Shown in pieces: positions 26,607 to 39,698 of a stretch of DNA of 64,000 nucleotides (position 1 is its first letter; every line of letters begins with the position of its first letter). Source of the DNA: Pseudomonas fluorescens (GTDB taxonomy: Bacteria; Pseudomonadota; Gammaproteobacteria; Pseudomonadales; Pseudomonadaceae). The position numbers and the translations under genes were made by a program. The DNA lies in contig NZ_CP015637.1 in NCBI RefSeq assembly GCF_001708445.1, forward strand, positions 4,155,001 through 4,219,000, given 5' to 3'. The notes below the pieces were generated by a model that saw nothing but the letters and a program-made list of their open reading frames with translations, was not told where the DNA came from and did no database searches.

Positions 26607-27542
26607 ATGAATCTGAGCAAGGTCGACCTCAACCTCTTCATCGTCTTTGACGCGATCTACACCGAAGCCAACCTGACCCGCGCCGGGCAGATTGTCGGCA
26701 TTACCCAACCAGCGGTATCCAACGCTCTGGCCCGCTTGCGCGAGACCTTCAACGACCCGCTGTTCGTGCGCACAGCCCAAGGCATGGTGCCCACGCCGAT
26801 GGCGCAGAACATCATCGGTCCGGTGCGCAATGCGTTGTCATTGCTGCGGGTGTCGGTGCAGGAAAGCCGGATTTTCAACCCTCAGCAGGCGGCCAAGACC
26901 TATCGCATCAGCATGACCGACCTCACCGAGGCGGTGATCCTGCCGTTGCTGTTCCAGCGTCTGCGCCGCCTGGCACCGACGGTGGTGATCGAGAGTTTCC
27001 TGTCCAAGCGCCGCGAAACCACCAAGGAACTGGCCGCCGGGCGCCTGGATTTTGCCGTGGACGCGCCGCTCAACACCGACCCGCAGGTGCGCCACGTCAA
27101 GCTGATGGAAGACCGCTACGTCTGTGCCATGCGCAAGGGCCATCCCATGGCGGGCAAGGACAAATTCACCTTGGATGACTACCTGTCGCTGACCCATATC
27201 CATATCTCCAGCCGCCGAAATGGCCTGGGCCATGTCGACCTGGCCCTGGGCAAGATGGGCATCCAGCGCAAGATTGCCCTGCGCTCCCAGCATTACCTGA
27301 TGGCCTCCCAAGTGTTGCAGCAGACCGACATGGTGATGACCGTGCCCGAACGCTTCGCCCGCCGTCATGACCTGCACTGGTTCAACCTGCCGGTCAATGA
27401 CGTGCCGCCGGTGGAAACCCACCTGTACTGGCACGAAAGCACCGACCAGGACCCGGCCAACCGCTGGATGCGTGAGCAAATGATCGAGTTGTGCCAGCAA
27501 GTCACGGCTCACGAAAAGAAGCTGGATAAACAGCAGGCCTGA
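26607..27542 (+). CDS. LysR-family regulator
   Basis: This 311-residue LTTR has its helix-turn-helix in AIYTEANLTRAGQIVGITQPAVSNALARLR and a periplasmic-binding-like effector domain from about residue 90. It belongs to the NodD/PA0477-like group, judging by NLFIVFDAIYTE at the start and DFAVDAPLNTDPQVRHVKL. Being divergent from the acyl-CoA dehydrogenase suggests that this gene is its target. A REP arm follows the stop. Confidence 0.9.
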   Translation: MNLSKVDLNLFIVFDAIYTEANLTRAGQIVGITQPAVSNALARLRETFNDPLFVRTAQGMVPTPMAQNIIGPVRNALSLLRVSVQESRIFNPQQAAKTYRISMTDLTEAVILPLLFQRLRRLAPTVVIESFLSKRRETTKELAAGRLDFAVDAPLNTDPQVRHVKLMEDRYVCAMRKGHPMAGKDKFTLDDYLSLTHIHISSRRNGLGHVDLALGKMGIQRKIALRSQHYLMASQVLQQTDMVMTVPERFARRHDLHWFNLPVNDVPPVETHLYWHESTDQDPANRWMREQMIELCQQVTAHEKKLDKQQA

Positions 27543-27630: not shown

Positions 27631-27657
27631 AACGCCAAGACCTTCTTGAGCGCCCCC

Positions 27658-28053
27658 ATGAGCACGACCTACAGCATCTCCGACCTCGCCCGCGAGCTCG
27701 ACATCACCACCCGCGCCATTCGCTTCTATGAAGAACAAGGCCTGCTGGCCCCGGAACGCCGAGGCCAGGAACGCATCTACTCGGCGCGGGACAAGGTCAG
27801 CCTGAAGCTGATCCTGCGTGGCAAGCGCATCGGTTTTTCCCTGGCCGAGTGCCGTGAATTGATCGAACTCTACGACCCCGCCAGCGGCAACCATATCCAG
27901 CTCAACAGCATGCTGGCGAAGATCGCCGAACGCCGTGAACAGTTGGAGCAACAGTTGCTGGATATCGAACAAATGAAGCTGGAACTGGACACCGCCGAAG
28001 AGCGCTGCACCCAGGCCCTGGCCGAGACCATCCAAGGCCAGGCTGGCCATTGA
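27658..28053 (+). CDS. liuR: MerR-family regulator of leucine/isovalerate catabolism
   Basis: This 131-residue protein has the MerR helix-turn-helix SISDLARELDITTRAIRFYEEQG, the wing (ERRGQERIYSARDKVSLKLILRGKRIGFS) and a dimerisation coiled coil at about residues 80-120. It has no metal-binding Cys cluster, as expected for LiuR, which responds to a liu-pathway CoA ester. ATG 27658 is favoured over a TTG four codons upstream. It is co-transcribed with liuE 16 bases downstream. Sites like its own operator lie in front of liuA, 3.6 kb away. Confidence 0.88.
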   Translation: MSTTYSISDLARELDITTRAIRFYEEQGLLAPERRGQERIYSARDKVSLKLILRGKRIGFSLAECRELIELYDPASGNHIQLNSMLAKIAERREQLEQQLLDIEQMKLELDTAEERCTQALAETIQGQAGH

Positions 28054-28069: not shown

Positions 28070-28969
28070 ATGTCCCTCCCCTCCCACGTGCGCCTGGTCG
28101 AAGTCGGCCCGCGCGACGGTTTGCAGAACGAAGCCCAACCCATCAGCGTGGCCGACAAGGTGCAGTTGGTGGACGCCCTGAGTGCCGCCGGCCTGGGCTA
28201 TATCGAGGTGGGCAGTTTCGTCTCGCCCAAATGGGTGCCACAGATGGCCGGTTCCGCTGAGGTGTTTGCGCAGATCCAGCGCAAGCCCGGTGTCACCTAT
28301 GGCGCGTTGGCACCGAACCTGCGCGGGTTTGAAGACGCGCTGGCGGCCGGCGTGAAGGAAGTCGCAGTGTTTGCGGCATCCTCCGAGGCGTTTTCCCAGC
28401 GCAATATCAACTGCTCCATCAGCGAAAGCCTGGAGCGTTTTGCGCCGATCATGGCGGCGGCCAAGCAGCACGGCATCAGTGTGCGTGGCTATGTGTCCTG
28501 TGTGCTGGGTTGCCCGTACGAAGGCGCGGTCGCCCCGGAGCAAGTGGCGGCAGTGGCTCGTGAGCTGTATGCCATGGGCTGCTATGAAGTGTCCCTGGGC
28601 GACACCATCGGCACCGGCACGGCCGGCGCCACGCGGCGGCTGTTCGAGGTGGTGGGTGCGCAGGTACCGCGGGACAAGTTGGCGGGGCACTTCCACGACA
28701 CGTATGGGCAGGCGATCGCCAATGTCTACGCCAGCCTGTTGGAAGGGATCAATGTGTTCGACAGCTCTATCGCGGGCCTCGGCGGCTGCCCCTACGCCAA
28801 GGGCGCCAGCGGTAACGTCGCCACCGAGGACGTGGTGTACCTGCTCGATGGGCTGGGGATCCACACGGGCATCGACCTGGAGCAACTGATCCGGGCCGGC
28901 CAACAGATCTGCACAGTGCTGGGCCGCCCCACCGGTTCGCGTGTGGCCAAGGTGCGTAGCACACAGTGA
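28070..28969 (+). CDS. liuE: Hydroxymethylglutaryl-CoA lyase
   Basis: This is a 299-residue DRE-TIM barrel enzyme (mvaB/liuE). VEVGPRDGLQNE carries the active-site DxLQNE motif. YVSCVLGCPYEG and GLGGCPYAKGASGNVATEDV hold the signature Cys and metal-site residues, and HFHDTYGQA carries the metal-binding His pair. It cleaves HMG-CoA to acetyl-CoA and acetoacetate, the last step of leucine breakdown begun by liuABCD at 31-37 kb. It follows liuR in one operon. The crcY-like sRNA lies just downstream. Confidence 0.95.
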   Translation: MSLPSHVRLVEVGPRDGLQNEAQPISVADKVQLVDALSAAGLGYIEVGSFVSPKWVPQMAGSAEVFAQIQRKPGVTYGALAPNLRGFEDALAAGVKEVAVFAASSEAFSQRNINCSISESLERFAPIMAAAKQHGISVRGYVSCVLGCPYEGAVAPEQVAAVARELYAMGCYEVSLGDTIGTGTAGATRRLFEVVGAQVPRDKLAGHFHDTYGQAIANVYASLLEGINVFDSSIAGLGGCPYAKGASGNVATEDVVYLLDGLGIHTGIDLEQLIRAGQQICTVLGRPTGSRVAKVRSTQ

Positions 28970-28988
28970 GTAACCGATCCGTGACGAT

Positions 28989-29020
28989 GTGTTACCGCAC
29001 CGCTACACATCGAGTAACAC
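28989..29020. promoter_or_regulatory. Possible CbrB activator site
   Basis: GTGTTAC (28989-28995) and GTAACAC (29014-29020) form an inverted repeat with 18 bases between. Another GTAAC lies at 28970. The element is about 85-110 bases upstream of a sigma-54 promoter, where an NtrC-type activator such as CbrB would bind. The assignment is inference. Confidence 0.5.
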
Positions 29021-29102
29021 GGGAACATATTTTGTGGCATTCGCCGTAGGCCAAATCGCACACAAAAATTAACTCATTGATTCTAAAAGACTTTATAAAG
29101 TT

Positions 29103-29116
29103 GGCACGGGTTCTGC
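29103..29116 (+). promoter_or_regulatory. Sigma-54 promoter of the CrcY-like sRNA
   Basis: TTGGCACGGGTTCTGCT contains GG at 29103-29104 and GC at 29115-29116 with exactly 10 bases between, matching the -24/-12 RpoN consensus. Transcription would begin near 29128. Confidence 0.85.
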
Positions 29117-29127
29117 TATCTCTATGG

Positions 29128-29498
29128 CATAACAAGAATAAAAAGCGCCAAACCTAATAAAAATAAGACGTAACGACTCTGACATAACAAAAACAACACG
29201 GCAGAGACGCAGCTAACAGATTTTTTTGGAGAAGATGTGCTTCGCAGGGTACGGCATGCCGAAACCCGCAACCGGATAGAGAAAAATAAAACTACCTCAG
29301 GTAGCTGCCACTGGTTGGATCGCTTGCGAAGAAGCAGATCAGCGCTCAAAAAAATACGTTTGCTCTTGACCCCGGATGGGGGTCGCCAAAAACAGCGGTA
29401 AAGGGTCACGGTTACCAAAAACAACAACAGACCGCCCCTCAATAATAAAAAAAGAGCAGGCAACGACAAATTAAAGGGGACCCTAGGGTCCCCTTTGT
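29128..29498 (+). ncRNA. crcY: CrcY/CrcX-like Hfq-Crc sequestering sRNA
   Basis: No protein gene is credible between 28970 and 29535. The sequence shows a ~370-nt transcript unit: a sigma-54 promoter, at least five A-rich Hfq/Crc-binding CA motifs (for example AACAAGAATAAAAAG at 29131, AACAAAAACAACA at 29186, AAAAACAACAACAG at 29417, AATAATAAAAAAAG at 29441), and a 24-base perfect palindrome at 29473-29496 as terminator. From memory, the length and the position next to mvaB/liuE match CrcY of P. putida. Such RNAs are activated by CbrAB and titrate Hfq-Crc to relieve carbon catabolite repression. Confidence 0.85.
29473..29498. terminator. Terminator of the CrcY-like sRNA
   Basis: AAAGGGGACC, CTAG and GGTCCCCTTT form a perfect 24-base palindrome ending in TTT. 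Because it is symmetric it can also serve the acyl-CoA synthetase gene, whose stop lies 38 bases away on the minus strand. Confidence 0.8.
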
Positions 29499-29535
29499 GC
29501 TGTGTGCACGCCTCCTCAGGCAGCGGCGCTTTCCC

Positions 29536-31173
29536 TCAGTCGTTGCGCGACGCCAACTCCTCGATACTGATCTCGCGCATGCGGAATTTCTGGACCTTGC
29601 CCGTGACGGTCATCGGAAATTCGTCCACGAACTTGAAATGCTTGGGCGTCTTGAAGTGCGCGATGCGCCCCTTGCACCAGGTGTGCAACTCCAGCGCGCT
29701 GACCACGTGCCCAGGGTGAAACTTGACCCAGGCCACAATCTCTTCGCCATAACGCTCATCCGGAACACCAATAACCTGCACGTCGGCCACCGCCGGATGG
29801 GTAAAGAAAAACTCTTCCAGCTCCCGCGAGTACACGTTCTCGCCACCGCGAATGATCATGTCTTTGTTGCGCCCGGCGATGCATACGTAGCCGTGCGCGT
29901 CCATGGTCGCCAGGTCGCCGGTGTGCATCCAGCCCGCGTCGTCGATGGCCTCGCGGGTACCTTCCGGGTTGTTCCAGTAGCCGAGCATCACGCTGTAGCC
30001 ACGGGTACACAGCTCGCCCGTCTCGCCGCGCGCCACGGTGTTACCGTCGATGTCGATGATCTTGTGTTCGAGGTGTGGCTGGGTACGCCCCACCGTGGTG
30101 ACCCGACGCTCCAGGTCATCATCGGCGCCGGTCTGCAACGACACCGGGCTGGTTTCGGTCATGCCGTAGGCAATCTGCACCTCGCCCATATGCAATTCGC
30201 CGATGACCCGGCGCATCACTTCAATGGGGCACGTGGCGCCGGCCATGATGCCGGTACGCAGGGACGACAGCTCCAACTCGCCCCGGCGCGGATGATCGAG
30301 CATGGCGATAAACATGGTGGGCACGCCGTACAGGCCAGTGGCGCGCTCTTCGGCGACGGCGGTGAGCGTCAGCAGCGGATCGAAGCCGTCATTGGGGTAG
30401 ATCATGGTGGTGCCATGGGTGATACAGCCCAGGTTGCCCATCACCATGCCAAAGCAGTGGTACAGCGGCACCGGGATCACCAGGCGATCCTGCGCGGTGA
30501 GGCCCAGGCTTTCGCCGACCATGTAGCCGTTGTTGAGGATGTTGTGGTGACTGAGGGTGGCTCCCTTGGGGAAGCCGGTAGTGCCGGAGGTGTACTGGAT
30601 ATTGACGGCTTGATCAAAGCTCAGGCTGGCTTGACGGCTGCGCACCTGTTCCGGCGCGACTCCCGCCCCGAGTGCCGCCAACTGCGACCAGGGCAGGAAA
30701 CCCGGGGGCGGGCTGGGGTCAAGGCTGATGACGCCACGCAGGTCGGGCTTCAGCGCCTGCACCATGGCATGGTAATCGGACGTCTTGAATGACCCGGCGC
30801 ACACCAGCCACTGGCAACCGGATTGCTTGAGCACGTATTCCAACTCACTGCTGCGATAGGCCGGGTTGATATTGACCAGGATCACCCCGAGCTTGGCGCT
30901 GGCGATTTGGCTGATACACCATTCGGCGCAATTGGGCGCCCAGATGCCCAGGCGGTCGCCGGTTTGCATGCCCAGGGCCAGGAACGCGCGGGCGTGCAGG
31001 TCAACGGTCTCGGCCAGTTGCCGCCAGGTGTAGCGGCGCTGTTGGTGGCGCACCACCAGGGCTTCGCCATCGGGATGCTGCGCAACGGTGCGATCGAAGG
31101 CCTGACCGATGGTCATGGCCAGCAGCGTCTTGTCCTGGGAGCCACGGCTGTAGCTCGGATTCGGTTGATCCAT
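29536..31173 (-). CDS. AMP-dependent acyl-CoA synthetase
   Basis: This 545-residue ANL-superfamily ligase activates a carboxylic acid to its CoA thioester through an acyl-AMP. Core motifs are [18 protein letters not shown] (P-loop, A3), YGMTETSP (A5), [15 protein letters not shown] (A6-A7), HTGDLATMD and [15 protein letters not shown] (A8). A C-terminal Lys occurs in [12 protein letters not shown] 31173 has AGGGG upstream; the open frame to 31290 crosses the regulatory region. It is divergent from liuA with two LiuR-type boxes between, so it may activate a branched-chain acid feeding the pathway. The exact substrate is unknown. Confidence 0.88.
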
Positions 31174-31200
31174 AACGACCCCTGTTGTCTTTTTTGTAGG

Positions 31201-31260
31201 TTGACGTAAACGTAAACTACGATTGACAGCACCGCAACGCAAGCTTACGTTAACGTAAAG
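31201..31260. promoter_or_regulatory. Two LiuR-type operators between liuA and the synthetase gene
   Basis: TTGACGTAAACGTAAA (31201-31216) and TTACGTTAACGTAA (31245-31258, a perfect palindrome) share the pattern of the site before liuR at 27601. The centres are 43 bases apart, one near each divergent start. TTGACA at 31223 could be the -35 of liuA. Confidence 0.75.
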
Positions 31261-31323
31261 GTGATCGCCCTCCCCCGGCGCCCCACCCACATAACAACAA
31301 AGCTCAACTTAAGGTGCCCGTCC

Positions 31324-32487
31324 ATGAGTTATCCCTCCCTGAACTTCGCCCTCGGTGAAACCATCGACATGTTGCGCGACCAGGTGCAGTCCTTCGTGGC
31401 CAAGGAGATCGCCCCTCGCGCGGCACAGATCGACATCGACAACCTGTTTCCCGCCGACCTGTGGCGCAAGTTTGGCGACATGGGCCTGCTGGGCATCACG
31501 GTGCCGGAAGCGTACGGCGGTGCCGGCCTGGGTTACCTGGCCCACGTGGTGGCCATGGAAGAAATCAGCCGCGGTTCGGCGTCGGTGGCGCTGTCCTACG
31601 GCGCCCACTCCAACCTCTGCGTCAATCAGATCAACCGCAACGGCAACCATGAGCAGAAGCTCAAGTACCTGCCTCAACTGATCAGCGGCGAACATGTGGG
31701 CGCCCTGGCCATGAGCGAGCCGAATGCCGGCTCCGATGTGGTCTCGATGAAGCTGCGCGCCGACAAGCGTGGCGACCGCTACGTGCTCAACGGCAGCAAG
31801 ACCTGGATCACCAACGGCCCTGACGCCAACACCTATGTGATCTACGCCAAGACCGACCTGGAAAAGGGCCCCCACGGCATCACCGCCTTCATCGTCGAGC
31901 GTGACTGGAAAGGCTTCAGCCGCAGCAACAAGTTCGACAAACTGGGCATGCGCGGCTCCAACACCTGCGAGCTGTTTTTCGATGATGTGGAAGTCCCCGA
32001 AGACAATATCCTCGGTGCCCTCAACGGCGGTGTGAAAGTGCTGATGAGCGGCCTGGACTACGAACGCGTGGTGCTCTCCGGTGGCCCGACCGGGATCATG
32101 CAGGCGTGCATGGACCTGATCGTGCCCTACATCCACGACCGCAAGCAGTTCGGCCAGAGCATCGGCGAATTCCAGCTGATCCAGGGCAAGGTCGCCGACA
32201 TGTACACCCAACTCAATGCCAGCCGCGCCTACCTCTACGCAGTGGCGCAAGCCTGCGAGCGTGGCGAAACCACGCGCAAGGATGCGGCCGGGGTGATCCT
32301 CTACAGCGCCGAACGCGCGACGCAGATGGCCCTCGATGCCATCCAGATCCTCGGCGGCAACGGCTATATCAACGAATTCCCTGCCGGACGCCTGCTGCGT
32401 GACGCCAAGCTGTATGAAATCGGGGCCGGCACCAGTGAGATTCGGCGGATGCTGATCGGTCGCGAACTCTTCAACGAAACCCGCTGA
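31324..32487 (+). CDS. liuA: Isovaleryl-CoA dehydrogenase
   Basis: This 387-residue ACAD-family flavoenzyme converts isovaleryl-CoA to 3-methylcrotonyl-Co[18 protein letters not shown] and [13 protein letters not shown] line the FAD/substrate site. [15 protein letters not shown] carries the Glu seen in isovaleryl-CoA dehydrogenases in place of the more C-terminal base of other ACADs. The C-terminus [16 protein letters not shown] is standard. ATG 31324 begins the conserved N-terminus, with AAGG upstream. It is the first gene of liuABCD, and 11 bases separate it from liuB. Confidence 0.95.
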
Positions 32488-32498
32488 AGGAACACGTC

Positions 32499-34106
32499 AT
32501 GGCCACCTTGCACACCCAGCTCAACCCGCGCTCGGCGGAGTTCATCGCCAATGACGCAGCGATGCGCCAACAGGTCGACGCCCTGCACACCCTGCTCGCC
32601 CACGTGCAGCAGGGTGGCGGCGCCAAGGCCCAGGAGCGCCACACTTCACGCGGCAAACTGTTGCCGCGCGAGCGCATCAACCGCTTGCTCGACCCAGGCT
32701 CACCGTTCCTTGAACTCAGCCAACTGGCCGCCCACCAGGTGTATGGCGAAGACGTGCCTGCCGCCGGCGTGATTGCCGGGATAGGCCGGGTCGAAGGGGT
32801 TGAATGCATGATCGTCGCCAACGATGCCACGGTGAAGGGCGGCTCCTACTACCCGCTGACCGTGAAGAAACACCTGCGCGCCCAAACCATCGCCGAGCAG
32901 AATCGCCTGCCGTGCATCTACCTGGTGGACTCAGGTGGCGCCAACCTGCCGCGCCAGGATGAAGTGTTTCCCGACCGTGAGCACTTCGGGCGGATCTTCT
33001 TCAACCAGGCGAACATGAGTGCCCAGGGCATCCCGCAGATCGCCGTGGTGATGGGTTCGTGCACCGCCGGCGGCGCCTACGTGCCGGCGATGGCCGACGA
33101 AGCGATCATGGTGCGCCAGCAGGCCACCATCTTCCTCGCCGGCCCGCCGCTGGTGAAGGCGGCGACCGGTGAAGTGGTCAGCGCTGAAGACCTCGGCGGT
33201 GCCGATGTGCACTGCAAGATTTCTGGCGTAGCCGACCACTATGCCGACAGCGACGAGCACGCCCTGGCCCTGGCCCGCCGCAGCGTCGCCCACCTCAATT
33301 GGCACAAGCAGGGCCAGTTGCTGCAACGCACGCCGGTAGCGCCGTTGTATAGCAGCGAGGAGCTCTATGGCGTGATCCCGGCCGATGCCAAGCAACCGTT
33401 CGATGTGCACGAAGTGATCGCACGGCTGGTGGACGGCTCGGTGTTCGATGAATTCAAGGCCCTGTTCGGCACCACCCTGGTGTGCGGTTTTGCCCACTTG
33501 CACGGCTATCCGATTGCGATCCTGGCCAACAACGGGATTTTGTTTGCGGAAGCCGCGCAAAAAGGCGCGCACTTTATCGAGCTGGCCTGCCAGCGCGGGA
33601 TTCCGCTGCTGTTCTTGCAGAACATCACCGGCTTTATGGTCGGCCAGAAATACGAGGCCGGCGGTATCGCCAAGCATGGCGCCAAGCTGGTCACCGCCGT
33701 GGCCTGCGCCAAGGTGCCGAAATTCACGGTGATCATCGGCGGCAGCTTTGGTGCCGGTAACTATGGGATGTGCGGCCGCGCCTACGACCCGCGCTTTTTA
33801 TGGATGTGGCCGAACGCGCGCATCGGTGTGATGGGTGCCGAGCAGGCCGCAGGGGTGCTGGTGCAGGTCAAGCGTGAACAGGCCGAACGTGCAGGGGTTG
33901 CGTTCAGTGCCGAAGAAGAAGCGGCGATCAAGCAGCCGATCCTCGACCAGTATGAAACCCAGGGCCATCCCTACTACTCCAGCGCGCGCTTGTGGGACGA
34001 CGGCGTCATCGACCCGATGCAGACCCGCGACGTGCTGGCCCTGGCGCTGTCTGCCGCGCTGAATGCCCCCATCGAGCCGAGCCGCTTCGGCGTGTTCCGC
34101 ATGTAA
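32499..34106 (+). CDS. liuB: Methylcrotonyl-CoA carboxylase, carboxyltransferase subunit
   Basis: This 535-residue beta subunit transfers the carboxyl group from biotin to 3-methylcrotonyl-CoA. The two crotonase-like carboxyltransferase halves are present: [17 protein letters not shown] in the first, and [25 protein letters not shown] with [20 protein letters not shown] in the second. Length is typical of MccB. It works with the biotin subunit LiuD. A near-perfect REP doublet follows the stop at once, separating it from liuC. Confidence 0.96.
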
Positions 34107-34210
34107 CCTGTAGGAGCGAGCTTGCTCGCGAAGGTCGTTAACGATAACGCGAGCATTCTGGATGAACGCGTTGCCTGGACGTTTTTCGCGAGCAAGCTCG
34201 CTCCTACAGG
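34107..34210. repeat. REP doublet inside the liu operon
   Basis: Two exact 26-base inverted arms (34107-34132 and 34185-34210; core TGTAGGAGCGAGCTTGCTCG) flank a 52-base loop. The left arm begins right after the liuB stop and the right arm ends 30 bases before the liuC start. The core sequence differs from the GTGGGAGGGGGC type used elsewhere in the window. Confidence 0.9.
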
Positions 34211-34239
34211 AGACCTCTCATCATCATGGAGCTCCTTGC

Positions 34240-35046
34240 ATGAGCGATTTCAACACCCTCGAACTGATCACCGACAGCCGTGGCTTTGCCACGCTGTGGC
34301 TCAGTCGTGAAGCCAAGAACAACGCATTCAACGCCGAGATGATCCGCGAACTGATCATCGCCCTCGACCAGGTGCAAGGTGATCCGTCCCTGCGCTTCCT
34401 GGTCCTGCGCGGGCGCGGCAAGCACTTCAGCGCCGGGGCCGACCTGGCCTGGATGCAGCAATCGGCCGAGCTGGACTACCACACCAACCTGGACGACGCC
34501 CGCGAACTGGCCGAGCTGATGTACAACCTGGCGAAGCTGAAGATCCCCACCCTGGCAGTGGTGCAAGGCGCGGCCTACGGTGGCGCATTGGGCCTGATCA
34601 GTTGCTGCGACATGGCGATTGGTGCCGATGACGCACAGTTCTGCCTGTCAGAAGTGCGTATTGGCTTGGCGCCAGCGGTGATCAGCCCGTTTGTGGTACA
34701 GGCGATCGGCGAGCGCGCAGCCCGGCGTTATGCGCTGACGGCCGAACGGTTTGGCGGCCAACGGGCGCGGGATATCGGCCTGCTGGCGGAAAGCTATCCG
34801 ACCGATACGCTGGAACAACAGGTCGCGCAATGGGTTGCCAACCTGCTGCAAAACAGCCCGGCGGCGATGCGCGCCAGCAAAGACTTATTGCGCGAGGTCG
34901 GTAACGGCGCCCTCACCCCGGCCCTGCGCCGCTATTGCGAAAATGCCATCGCCCGCATTCGCGTCAGCGCCGAAGGCCAGGAAGGCTTGCGCGCGTTCCT
35001 GCAAAAACGTACGCCCAGCTGGCAATCCCAGGAGCCCCGTTCATGA
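34240..35046 (+). CDS. liuC: Methylglutaconyl-CoA hydratase
   Basis: This 268-residue enoyl-CoA hydratase/isomerase-fold protein has the oxyanion-hole motifs FSAGADLAWM and VQGAAYGGALGLISCCDM. In the liu pathway it hydrates 3-methylglutaconyl-CoA to HMG-CoA, the substrate of LiuE. The start at 34240 has GGAG 8 bases upstream; the longer frame to 34162 runs through the REP element and is rejected. The stop overlaps the liuD start in ATGA. Confidence 0.93.
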   Translation: MSDFNTLELITDSRGFATLWLSREAKNNAFNAEMIRELIIALDQVQGDPSLRFLVLRGRGKHFSAGADLAWMQQSAELDYHTNLDDARELAELMYNLAKLKIPTLAVVQGAAYGGALGLISCCDMAIGADDAQFCLSEVRIGLAPAVISPFVVQAIGERAARRYALTAERFGGQRARDIGLLAESYPTDTLEQQVAQWVANLLQNSPAAMRASKDLLREVGNGALTPALRRYCENAIARIRVSAEGQEGLRAFLQKRTPSWQSQEPRS

Positions 35047-36968
35047 GCACACTGACCACCGTACTGGTGGCCAACCGTGGCGAAATCGCCTGCCGGGTGA
35101 TGCGCACCGCCAAGGCCATGGGCTTGACCACCGTCGCTGTACACAGCGCCACGGACCGCGACGCGCGCCATAGTCGCGAGGCGGATATCCGCGTCGACCT
35201 GGGGGGCAGCAAAGCCACGGACAGCTACCTGCAGATCGACAAATTGATCGCCGCGGCCCAGTCCAGCGGCGCCCAGGCGATTCATCCGGGCTACGGCTTC
35301 CTGTCGGAAAACGCCGGGTTTGCCCGCGCGGTCGAGGCCGCTGGCTTGATCTTCCTCGGCCCGCCCGCCTCGGCGATCGACGCCATGGGCAGCAAGTCGG
35401 CCGCCAAGGCGTTGATGGAGACCGCCGGCGTGCCGCTGGTGCCGGGTTACCACGGCGAAGCCCAGGACCTGGAGACGTTCCGCGATGCCTGCGCGCGTAT
35501 CGGCTACCCGGTGCTGCTCAAGGCCACGGCCGGCGGCGGCGGCAAGGGAATGAAAGTGGTCGAGGACGTCAGTCAGTTGGCCGAGGCATTGGCCTCTGCC
35601 CAGCGCGAGGCGCTGTCGTCGTTCGGCAATGGGCAGATGCTGGTGGAAAAATACCTGCTCAAGCCGCGCCATGTGGAGATCCAGGTGTTTGCCGACCAGC
35701 AGGGGCATTGCCTGTACCTCAATGAGCGCGATTGCTCGATCCAGCGTCGGCACCAAAAAGTCGTCGAGGAAGCCCCGGCGCCTGGCTTGAGTACTGAACA
35801 GCGCAAGGCCATGGGCGAAGCGGCGGTACGCGCAGCCCAGGCCATTGGCTATGTGGGCGCGGGCACGGTGGAATTTCTGCTGGATGCCCGTGGCGAGTTT
35901 TTCTTTATGGAAATGAACACGCGCCTGCAAGTGGAACACCCGGTGACTGAAGCGATTACCGGCCTCGATCTGGTGGCCTGGCAGATTCGCGTGGCCCAGG
36001 GTGAAGCGCTGCCGATCACCCAGGCACAAGTGCCGCTGATCGGCCATGCCATCGAAGTACGGCTGTACGCCGAAGACCCCTCCAACGATTTCCTGCCGGC
36101 CACCGGGCACCTGGCGCTGTACCGCGAATCAGCCCCCGGCCCGGGGCGACGCGTGGACAGCGGCGTCGAGCAGGGCGACAGCGTGTCGCCCTTCTACGAC
36201 CCGATGCTCGGCAAGCTGATTGCCTGGGGCGAAGACCGTGAACAGGCGCGATTGCGGCTGTTGAGCATGCTGGATGAATTTGCGGTGGGCGGGCTGCGGA
36301 CCAACCTGAGCTTCCTGCGTCGAATCATCGCCCACCCCGCGTTTGCCGCGGCGGAACTGGATACCGGGTTTATCCCGCGCTATCAGGATGAGCTGCTGCC
36401 GGTACCTGGCGCCTTGGGCGATGAGTTCTGGCAGGCCGCGGCCGCGGCGTTCATACAGAGCTTGCCGGCCGGTGACGGGCCTTGGGCGGACACGCGCGGT
36501 TTTCGTGCCGGCCTGCCCGCCGAAGTCTCGCTGCACTTGAGCTGCAATGGGCAGGATCGGTTGGTGACATTACCCACCCAGCCCCCGCTGTTGCGCGGCG
36601 AACAACTGCTGATCGAGCACCAGGGCGTACGCCGCGCTCATCTGGCGGTGCGCAGCGAAAGCACCCTGTACCTGCGCTGGGATGGCGAGTTGCACGCGGT
36701 CAGCCTGTTCGACCCGATTGCAGCGGTCGAGGCCGGCCAGTTCCATCAAGGCGGCCTGACCGCGCCCATGAACGGCAGCATCGTGCGGGTGCTGGTGGAA
36801 GTCGGCCAAGCCGTGGAGGCCGGCACGCAACTGGTGGTGCTGGAAGCCATGAAGATGGAACACAGCATCCGTGCGCCCCAGGCCGGGGTGATCAAGGCGT
36901 TGTTCTGCGAGGAAGGCGAAATGGTTGCCGAAGGCTGCGCGCTGGTGGAGCTCGAAACAGCCGACTAG
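35043..36968 (+). CDS. liuD: Methylcrotonyl-CoA carboxylase, biotin subunit
   Basis: This 641-residue alpha subunit has a biotin carboxylase N-terminal domain (VLVANRGEIACRVMRTAKAM), ATP-grasp (KATAGGGGKGMKVVED, then MEMNTRLQVEHPVTE), the BC C-terminal domain, and a biotinyl domain with EAMKMEHS, in which Lys604 is biotinylated. It carboxylates biotin with bicarbonate and ATP and hands the group to LiuB. It is the last gene of the operon. Its stop overlaps the stop of the convergent repressor gene (36965-36968). Confidence 0.96.
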   Translation: MSTLTTVLVANRGEIACRVMRTAKAMGLTTVAVHSATDRDARHSREADIRVDLGGSKATDSYLQIDKLIAAAQSSGAQAIHPGYGFLSENAGFARAVEAAGLIFLGPPASAIDAMGSKSAAKALMETAGVPLVPGYHGEAQDLETFRDACARIGYPVLLKATAGGGGKGMKVVEDVSQLAEALASAQREALSSFGNGQMLVEKYLLKPRHVEIQVFADQQGHCLYLNERDCSIQRRHQKVVEEAPAPGLSTEQRKAMGEAAVRAAQAIGYVGAGTVEFLLDARGEFFFMEMNTRLQVEHPVTEAITGLDLVAWQIRVAQGEALPITQAQVPLIGHAIEVRLYAEDPSNDFLPATGHLALYRESAPGPGRRVDSGVEQGDSVSPFYDPMLGKLIAWGEDREQARLRLLSMLDEFAVGGLRTNLSFLRRIIAHPAFAAAELDTGFIPRYQDELLPVPGALGDEFWQAAAAAFIQSLPAGDGPWADTRGFRAGLPAEVSLHLSCNGQDRLVTLPTQPPLLRGEQLLIEHQGVRRAHLAVRSESTLYLRWDGELHAVSLFDPIAAVEAGQFHQGGLTAPMNGSIVRVLVEVGQAVEAGTQLVVLEAMKMEHSIRAPQAGVIKALFCEEGEMVAEGCALVELETAD

Positions 36969-37731: not shown

Positions 37732-38082
37732 ATGACGACAAGCCCGCACCGCCTGCCTGAAACACCCGAAACCAGCGAATTGCTCGACATGCGCGGCAGC
37801 AGCGCCGCCCAGCGAGCCCTGGACTATTACTTGAAAGAAGATATGTCGCCATCGCCCTCGGATGACACCTTCTTTCGCGTCAAACCCGACATCAGCCACG
37901 AAGAAGCCCTGGTGCACGCCTCGGACCTGTTGCGCAGTGCTGCCGCCACCGCCTACGAATCAGCGAACAGCCATCAAGGCAATCAACGCGACCTGGCATT
38001 CTCAGTGGTGTATTTGATCGATATGGCGAAGGCGATGGTGGAGCAGTCGCTGCAGGCGCCGAAGGCTCAGGCAAGCGTGTGA
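37732..38082 (+). CDS. Small Pseudomonas protein, DUF3077/DUF6124-like
   Basis: This 116-residue soluble protein has no signal peptide or membrane segment. The middle, FFRVKPDISHEEALVHASDL followed by LRSAAATAYESA, resembles small Pseudomonas-specific families (DUF3077 or DUF6124) of unknown function that are often present in several copies per genome. The rest is helical and polar. It is divergent from the XRE/S24 repressor and shares its operator region, so it is probably repressed by it. The domain assignment is from memory and uncertain; the open frame and codon use look genuine. Confidence 0.75.
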   Translation: MTTSPHRLPETPETSELLDMRGSSAAQRALDYYLKEDMSPSPSDDTFFRVKPDISHEEALVHASDLLRSAAATAYESANSHQGNQRDLAFSVVYLIDMAKAMVEQSLQAPKAQASV

Positions 38083-38125: not shown

Positions 38126-38153
38126 TTGACTTGCAAATGATAATGATTATTAT
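38126..38153 (+). promoter_or_regulatory. PrrF promoter with Fur box
   Basis: TTGACT (38126-38131) and TATTAT (38148-38153), 16 bases apart, form a good sigma-70 promoter. The Fur box at 38133-38151 (core AATGATAATGATTAT) matches 15 of 19 bases of the classical consensus and overlaps the spacer and -10, so iron-loaded Fur would block transcription. Confidence 0.9.
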
Positions 38154-38159
38154 TGGACT

Positions 38160-38275
38160 CAGCTGATCGCGAGATCAGTCGATAGACCAAGGGACCTTAG
38201 GTCGGACTCTTGGAATATCTCCTCATCAGGCTAATCACGGTTTTTGACCCGGCTCTTTGGCCGGGTCTTTTTTTT
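38160..38275 (+). ncRNA. prrF: PrrF iron-responsive small RNA
   Basis: The ~115-nt RNA matches the remembered PrrF layout: a 5' hairpin CTGATCGCGAGATCAG, then GGGACCTTAGGTCGGACTCT, the conserved antisense core ATCTCCTCATCAGGCTAATC, ACGGTTTTTGACC, and a terminator stem GACCCGGC/GCCGGGTC (38246-38253, 38260-38267) with eight T residues. Under low iron, PrrF with Hfq represses mRNAs for iron-containing proteins (sodB, TCA enzymes and others). Only one copy is in this window. Confidence 0.93.
38246..38275 (+). terminator. PrrF terminator
   Basis: The stem is GACCCGGC, the loop TCTTTG and the return GCCGGGTC, followed by TTTTTTTT. Downstream, 38276-38546 holds no gene; the only notable thing is a weak Fur-like site at 38402-38420. 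Confidence 0.92.
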
Positions 38276-38546: not shown

Positions 38547-39698
38547 ATGACCGTGGCCTTGACCTCTATCAAGATCAGCACCGACTTCGACAGTGGCAAT
38601 ATCCAGGTTCTGGATGCCAGCGATGCCTATCAGTTGCTGCTCGCCATCGAACCCGATACCCGCAGCGCACATTTCCAGTGGTTCCACTTCAAGGCCGAAG
38701 GCATGCACGTGGGCCATACCCACACTTTCCGCCTGAGCAACGCCAGCCATTCTTCCTATAAGCATGCGTGGAGCGGCTACAACGCTGTCGCCTCCTACGA
38801 CCATATCAACTGGTTCCGCGTGCCCACGCGCTTTGATGGCGAGACCTTGCACATCAGCCTCGAAACCCGTGAGAAACACGCCTGGTTCGCCTACTTCGAA
38901 CCCTACAGCCGCGAACGCCACGACTGGCTGATCGAGCAGGCCGTGACCCGCGCAGGCGCTAAATTGCTGGCCACCGGTAAAAGTGTCGAAGGCCGTGATA
39001 TCCAGTTGCTACGTCGTGGCAAAGGCGGCAGCAACCGGCGCAAGGTCTGGATCATCGCCCAGCAACACCCCGGCGAACACATGGCCGAATGGTTCATGGA
39101 AGGCATCATCGAACGCCTGCAACAGGATGGCGATGCCGAGCTGAGGAAGCTCCTGGCCGTTGCCGACCTGTACCTGATCCCCAACATGAACCCTGACGGT
39201 GCCTTCCATGGCCACTTGCGCACCAACGCCATGGGCCAGGACCTCAACCGCGCGTGGCAGAGCGCCAACCAGGAAACCAGCCCGGAAGTGCTGTTCGTGC
39301 AGCAACAGATGGAAAAGCATGGCGTCGACCTGTTCCTCGACATCCATGGCGACGAGGAAATCCCCTACGTGTTCACCGCCGGTTGCGAAGGCAACCCGGG
39401 ATACACCCCGCGCATCGAAGCCCTGGAAAAACACTTCCGCAGCCACCTGAGCGCGCTGACCCGTGACTTCCAGACCACCCACGGCTACACCCGCGACCTG
39501 CCGGGCGAAGCCAACATGACCTTGGCCTGCAATGCCGTCGGCGAGAAATACGATTGCCTTTCGCTGACCCTGGAAATGCCGTTCAAGGACAACGACGATG
39601 CGCCCAACCCGCACACCGGCTGGTCGGGCAAACGTTCGATGCAATTGGGTAAGGATGTGTTGAGCACGATCGCCGATATCGTGACCGTCCTGCGCTAA
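38547..39698 (+). CDS. M14 metallocarboxypeptidase, cytosolic CCP/AGBL-like
   Basis: This 383-residue zinc carboxypeptidase has no signal peptide, so it is cytosolic. An N-terminal beta domain (residues ~1-120, including HFQWFHFKAEG) precedes the catalytic domain with zinc ligands in QQHPGEHMAEW (HxxE) and FLDIHGDEEIPY (His). PNMNPDGAF holds the substrate-binding residues, and SLTLEMPFKDN carries the catalytic Glu. This matches the M14D cytosolic carboxypeptidase family, whose bacterial substrates are unknown. It is monocistronic, followed by a hairpin at 39697-39722. Confidence 0.92.
   Translation: MTVALTSIKISTDFDSGNIQVLDASDAYQLLLAIEPDTRSAHFQWFHFKAEGMHVGHTHTFRLSNASHSSYKHAWSGYNAVASYDHINWFRVPTRFDGETLHISLETREKHAWFAYFEPYSRERHDWLIEQAVTRAGAKLLATGKSVEGRDIQLLRRGKGGSNRRKVWIIAQQHPGEHMAEWFMEGIIERLQQDGDAELRKLLAVADLYLIPNMNPDGAFHGHLRTNAMGQDLNRAWQSANQETSPEVLFVQQQMEKHGVDLFLDIHGDEEIPYVFTAGCEGNPGYTPRIEALEKHFRSHLSALTRDFQTTHGYTRDLPGEANMTLACNAVGEKYDCLSLTLEMPFKDNDDAPNPHTGWSGKRSMQLGKDVLSTIADIVTVLR

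Follow-up and report, generated by a model that had tools for sequence, protein, structure and literature searches.

A predicted crcY small RNA gene downstream of mvaB in Pseudomonas fluorescens and its linkage to a prrF gene

The stretch of Pseudomonas fluorescens DNA analysed here (the window; 64,000 nucleotides) carries, in this order, a gene for a MerR-family regulator, mvaB and a small RNA gene, the last of which faces a convergent gene for a fatty acid CoA ligase (Table 1). The RNA gene lies directly downstream of mvaB, with 159 bases separating the mvaB stop (28969) from the start of the Rfam model match. For the genes at 31261-36968 we assume liu names. The original prediction had proposed a CrcY/CrcX-like small RNA between liuE and the acyl-CoA synthetase gene, in a gene-free interval with a sigma-54 box, A-rich runs and a palindrome. 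All of these are present on direct reading of the gap, and family match, place and gene tree indicate that the RNA was named correctly.

Table 1 Features of the mvaB-crcY region and the linked prrF gene (window coordinates).
Feature	Position	Strand	Basis or remark
MerR-family regulator gene, LiuR homologue by position (start codon uncertain)	27646-28053	+	Pfam MerR_1 and MerR-DNA-bind
mvaB/liuE, hydroxymethylglutaryl-CoA lyase	28070-28969	+	NF004283, 490.9 bits (cut-off 246)
Putative CbrB F subsite TGTTAC (F1)	28990-28995	+	21/21 crcY rows; subsite sequence from PMC6296734 (accessible text)
Putative CbrB R subsite GTAACA	29014-29019	+	19/21 crcY rows, at -114 to -120
IHF-like site TAACTCATTGATT	29070-29082	+	Only window match to the assumed consensus
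Sigma-54 (-24/-12) promoter box TGGCACGGGTTCTGCT	29102-29117	+	GG 29103-29104, GC 29115-29116
Predicted crcY small RNA gene	29129-29498	+	Start from Rfam model, end from hairpin; RF01675, tree, synteny
Two AAYAAYAA Hfq/Crc-type motifs (at 29420 and 29441)	29420-29448	+	Lie among the 12 overlapping AANAANAA that the RNA contains
Terminator hairpin formed by a perfect 24-base palindrome; it faces the convergent gene too	29473-29496	+	Covariation in 12 sequences
Fatty acid CoA ligase gene, convergent (start codon uncertain)	29536-31290	-	NF009233, 918.9 bits (cut-off 832)
PrrF small RNA gene	38126-38275	+	RF00444, 162 bits; one of two in the genome

The search with the Rfam CrcZ/CrcY model that had been suggested as a check was run. 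A scan of the window returned RF01675 (CrcZ) at 29129-29531 on the plus strand with 320.2 bits (E = 5.8e-89), against a curated cut-off of 95 bits, and the match spanned the full length of the model (1-398). It extends approximately 35 nt past the hairpin; despite this longer model match, we infer that the hairpin forms the 3' end of the RNA. When folded, the segment 29129-29500 was more stable than its own shuffles (z = -4.2; none of 100 was as stable). Exact limits can now be given for a regulatory RNA that protein-gene annotation overlooks.

A textbook sigma-54 promoter (GG-N10-GC) had also been claimed. Both strands of the window were searched with the pattern TGG[CT]A[CT][GA]N4[TC]TGC[TA], which we take to be the consensus, and the only match obtained was the box upstream of the RNA. 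Promoter regions were compared between the window copy together with 20 of the other 47 mvaB-linked copies and the crcZ genes of the same 21 genomes. The box was found in all 21 crcY rows and all 21 crcZ rows, at -27 to -30 from the model start, and the claim holds. Upstream of it lie two putative CbrB subsites, so that the combination of a sigma-54 promoter with CbrB subsites, typical of the family, is present at the sequence level. Neither hexamer is informative by itself: TGTTAC is not rare, occurring seven times on the plus strand of the window, and GTAACA occurs there three times. A search for a clear third subsite upstream of the window crcY found none. The pattern that we assumed for IHF was present at -59 or -60 in 16 of the 21 crcY rows and in 1 of the 21 crcZ rows.

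The spacing of F1 varied among the 21 crcY rows. It was placed at -139 in the window copy and five others, at -140 in one more and at -149 to -155 in the remaining 14, bringing it approximately 11 bp (about one helical turn) closer to the promoter in the window genome and six relatives. The shorter spacing goes with an alignment gap between F1 and R. In the P. putida crcY promoter, according to the accessible text of PMC6296734, substitution of R1 or R' was without effect on expression, while F1 mattered most. The lineage of the window may have lost a dispensable middle CbrB site; the comparison of F1 spacing is with the 14 rows.

The perfect 24-base palindrome that had been read as a terminator is also there. 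Its covariation was assessed in 12 of the 21 crcY rows, where the 10 pairs were formed in 99.2% of cells, a level reached by none of 500 shuffles. Both sides had changed in three of the 10 pairs (a number also reached by 44 of 500 shuffles), and nine cells had changes on both sides (reached by none of 500 shuffles; mean 2.1). These compensatory changes uphold the hairpin, but the U tail on the crcY strand is poor: the plus-strand sequence that follows, (cccc)TTTGTGCTGTG, contains only a weak U run. A simple terminator scan listed the hairpin solely as a minus-strand terminator of the convergent gene and reported no plus-strand terminator in 28900-29600. The bases directly 3' of the hairpin are largely kept in the 12 aligned relatives.

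The expectation of repeated A-rich Hfq/Crc-binding motifs was borne out. Overlapping copies of AANAANAA are enriched, with 12 in 29129-29498 compared with a mean of 2.0 in 1000 dinucleotide shuffles, one of which reaches 12. The strict motif AAYAAYAA, however, was found only twice (shuffle mean 0.18; 16 of 1000 reach two), at the lower end of the range of two to five per row across the 21 crcY rows. The window RNA thus carries several A-rich motifs of the Hfq/Crc type, as members of the family do.

Elsewhere in the genome RF01675 matched at one other place, 5557733-5558121, with 357.1 bits; this is crcZ. A third Crc RNA was not detected in the genome at E 0.001, in which respect it differs from P. 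syringae DC3000, where the accessible text of PMC8871633 describes CrcX as a further family member under positive control of CbrB. The crcZ gene starts 194 bases past the last codon of a sigma-54 activator gene that we take to be cbrB. The encoded protein matched general sigma-54 activator families only, none above its cut-off among the matches listed, and the name CbrB is a probable one that draws on the place of the gene beside a CbrA-like kinase gene and crcZ. With this assignment, rpoN, hfq and cbrB are all present. The crcZ RNA belongs to the same Rfam family as the window copy and has the same promoter type and hairpin; the two are 68.6% identical over 350 aligned positions, but crcZ lies downstream of cbrB and the tree separates it from the mvaB-linked copies.

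We sought the family across the genus. RF01675 was matched in 296 of 298 genomes (the two misses were 73% and 77% complete); 14 control genomes gave no match. From the genus list 62 single-contig genomes were picked, and these yielded 118 matches: 62 after cbrB (one in each genome), 48 after mvaB and eight elsewhere (in seven genomes). The mvaB-linked copies begin 144-218 bases past the last matched mvaB codon in these 48 genomes. Among 40 titled mvaB loci scanned (from 80), RF01675 lay just after mvaB in 20, all titled Pseudomonas; those among the 40 at which it was absent included P. alcaligenes, P. resinovorans, P. otitidis, a Stutzerimonas and non-pseudomonads. For the eight copies elsewhere, six of the eight neighbouring frames gave no Pfam match, these frames having probably been wrongly chosen.

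An unrooted FastTree phylogeny was built from 54 RNA sequences (21 mvaB-linked, eight elsewhere and 25 cbrB-linked). All 21 mvaB-linked copies grouped with seven of the eight elsewhere (support 0.968; 0.959 with all eight), apart from the 25 cbrB-linked copies. The window copy clustered with five close relatives (support 0.979). The mvaB-linked copies do not form a clade of their own, five of the copies from elsewhere falling inside. Position and gene tree thus identify the window copy as crcY and exclude crcZ. Three genomes contain tandem Crc RNA genes (G051:C1:6292288-6293200, G086:C9:79362-80411 and G287:C1:2383940-2384854; 160, 291 and 160 bases apart, respectively), and G082:C16:6421-6651 has two adjoining partial RF01675 matches under the cut-off, which may be the remains of a decayed copy.

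We considered, and rejected, a large segmental duplication as the link between the regions of crcZ and crcY. Comparison of two 18-kb segments by blastn (E 1e-3) aligned only the two RNAs and a 100 bp stretch, which also matches partly in reverse, and tblastn of 155 frames between the segments revealed no further place.

The presence of crcZ raises the alternative that crcY is a decayed or silent copy, untranscribed or inactive, with crcZ doing all the work, and the small number of strict A-rich motifs would agree with this. Against it, relatives share the promoter box, the subsites, the IHF-like site and the hairpin, all of which are intact in the window. Identity of the window crcY to 20 other crcY sequences is 72-96%, and it is not truncated. 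We consider decay very improbable. Still less credible is that the stretch is a mere 3' untranslated part and terminator of a liuR-mvaB transcript: although a liuR-mvaB-crcY transcript has been reported in P. putida (PMC6292655, accessible text), a sigma-54 promoter of its own with activator subsites and a full-length match to the CrcZ model speak against this reading. A small protein encoded on the minus strand was rejected, as the open 115-aa frame at 29122-29469 has no NCBIfam match and the longest minus-strand stop-to-stop frame varies between 57 and 123 codons across 21 relatives.

Taken together, family membership, promoter elements, hairpin covariation, place and tree lead us to assign 29129-29498 (+) as a crcY orthologue, an ordinary member of a known family, with a probability of about 95%. 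The features that sit least easily with this assignment and the mechanism below are the plus-strand hairpin tail lacking a U-rich run, the two strict AAYAAYAA motifs and data from P. ogarae F113. The RNA is one already described, in its known place, and adds one orthologue to a known system; a reading of promoter, motifs and neighbourhood from the raw sequence sufficed to name it.

The published mechanism, worked out in P. putida, Azotobacter and other pseudomonads, holds that CbrB, RpoN and IHF drive CrcY on poor carbon and that CrcY titrates Hfq/Crc through its A-rich motifs (PMC6296734, PMC6292655, PMC8871633 and PMC8395346, accessible texts). By analogy with the family, exhaustion of preferred carbon would lead CbrB (with CbrA) to activate sigma-54 RNA polymerase at 29102-29117, with the help of IHF. 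Transcription would yield an RNA of approximately 370 nt with its end at the 29473-29496 hairpin. The A-rich single-stranded runs of this RNA would bind Hfq (with Crc) and pull Hfq off catabolic mRNAs, so that CrcY and its paralogue CrcZ would jointly lift catabolite repression and allow the use of less favoured foods. Induction, processing, Hfq/Crc binding and an effect on growth are likewise expected of the window crcY from its family.

Compared by description, CrcY of P. putida KT2440 and the window RNA are alike in following a liuR homologue and mvaB, in belonging to RF01675 and in having a sigma-54 promoter with CbrB subsites and IHF. The location beside mvaB, which the original prediction had cited for crcY, is right: in P. 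putida a transcript runs from PP3539 (encoding a LiuR homologue) through mvaB to crcY, and this longer transcript is also processed to a CrcY form, whereas in A. vinelandii the neighbours of crcY differ and no processed form was seen (PMC6292655, accessible text). Since the gene order here is that of P. putida, processing of a liuR-mvaB-crcY transcript is a likely second source of CrcY and may supply a basal level.

When P. ogarae F113 was on roots, its crc and cbrB mutants each had more crcY and crcZ than wild type, and ANR was proposed as a further activator of crcY (PMC12552145, accessible text). From the cbrB mutant result, CbrB need not be the sole activator. No match to the ANR site TTGAT-N4-ATCAA with at most two mismatches was found between 28753 and 30865. 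Across the whole window the same search gave 39 matches, where shuffled sequence gave 12.5 on average; since the pattern reads identically on both strands, all are listed on the plus strand.

CrcY is a carbon regulatory RNA and PrrF an iron regulatory RNA, and the two are unrelated. Of the two prrF genes in the genome, one follows crcY at a distance of 8.6 kb and the other precedes crcZ by 11.6 kb. Among the 62 genomes, a prrF gene is found upstream of crcZ on the same strand within 62 kb in 60, and within 20 kb in 56. All 48 genomes with an mvaB-linked Crc RNA have a second prrF, which in 39 follows crcY on the same strand at 5.8-13.7 kb and in nine is at least 178 kb away. The 14 genomes without an mvaB-linked copy comprise 10 with one prrF, two with tandem prrF and two (G149 and G164) with a separate second prrF. 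In a further count of 30 genomes, 13 had a prrF gene no more than 15 kb downstream of a Crc RNA, with both on one strand. The second prrF and crcY thus share distribution and neighbourhood across the genus. A prrF tree placed all 16 second copies tested (seven of the 39 near, eight of the nine distant and that of G149) in one clade (support 0.966), apart from the crcZ-side copies; both G164 copies fell outside it.

In G149 (locus L213) the order is LysR-crc-prrF-carboxypeptidase, with 307 bases between the Crc RNA and prrF; its LysR gene product is 65% identical to that of the window (26607-27542) and its M14 carboxypeptidase 67% (38547-39698), and no liu proteins were found in the 7-kb stretch. 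In G181 (L212) 189 bases, free of liu genes, separate the Crc RNA from the prrF that follows, and the same carboxypeptidase comes next; no LysR gene was found in the 1.8 kb upstream of the RNA. G018 has the order LysR, liuR, mvaB, crcY, liuABCD, prrF, carboxypeptidase.

These arrangements suggest, tentatively and at slightly less than even odds, that crcY and the second prrF originated or became established together, already linked, in the ancestor of the crcY-bearing pseudomonads, framed by the LysR and M14 carboxypeptidase genes, with liu genes flanking crcY in most descendants. The linkage and the parallel trees are observed; a single event would be one way to account for them. Given the shortness of the RNAs and the relatedness of the genomes, the linkage amounts to one history seen many times. 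The order differs between the two regions, prrF lying before crcZ and after crcY, and no larger copied block joins them. Should the linkage hold, the origin of two global regulatory RNAs would be tied to one place and perhaps to one event; on the reading of a joint origin, extra capacity for carbon-starvation and iron-starvation control would have one origin. No mention of the linkage was found in the openly licensed literature searched, which does not prove its absence. In the window, a gene for a 116-aa DUF6124/DUF3077 protein (37732-38082, plus strand) ends 44 bases before prrF.
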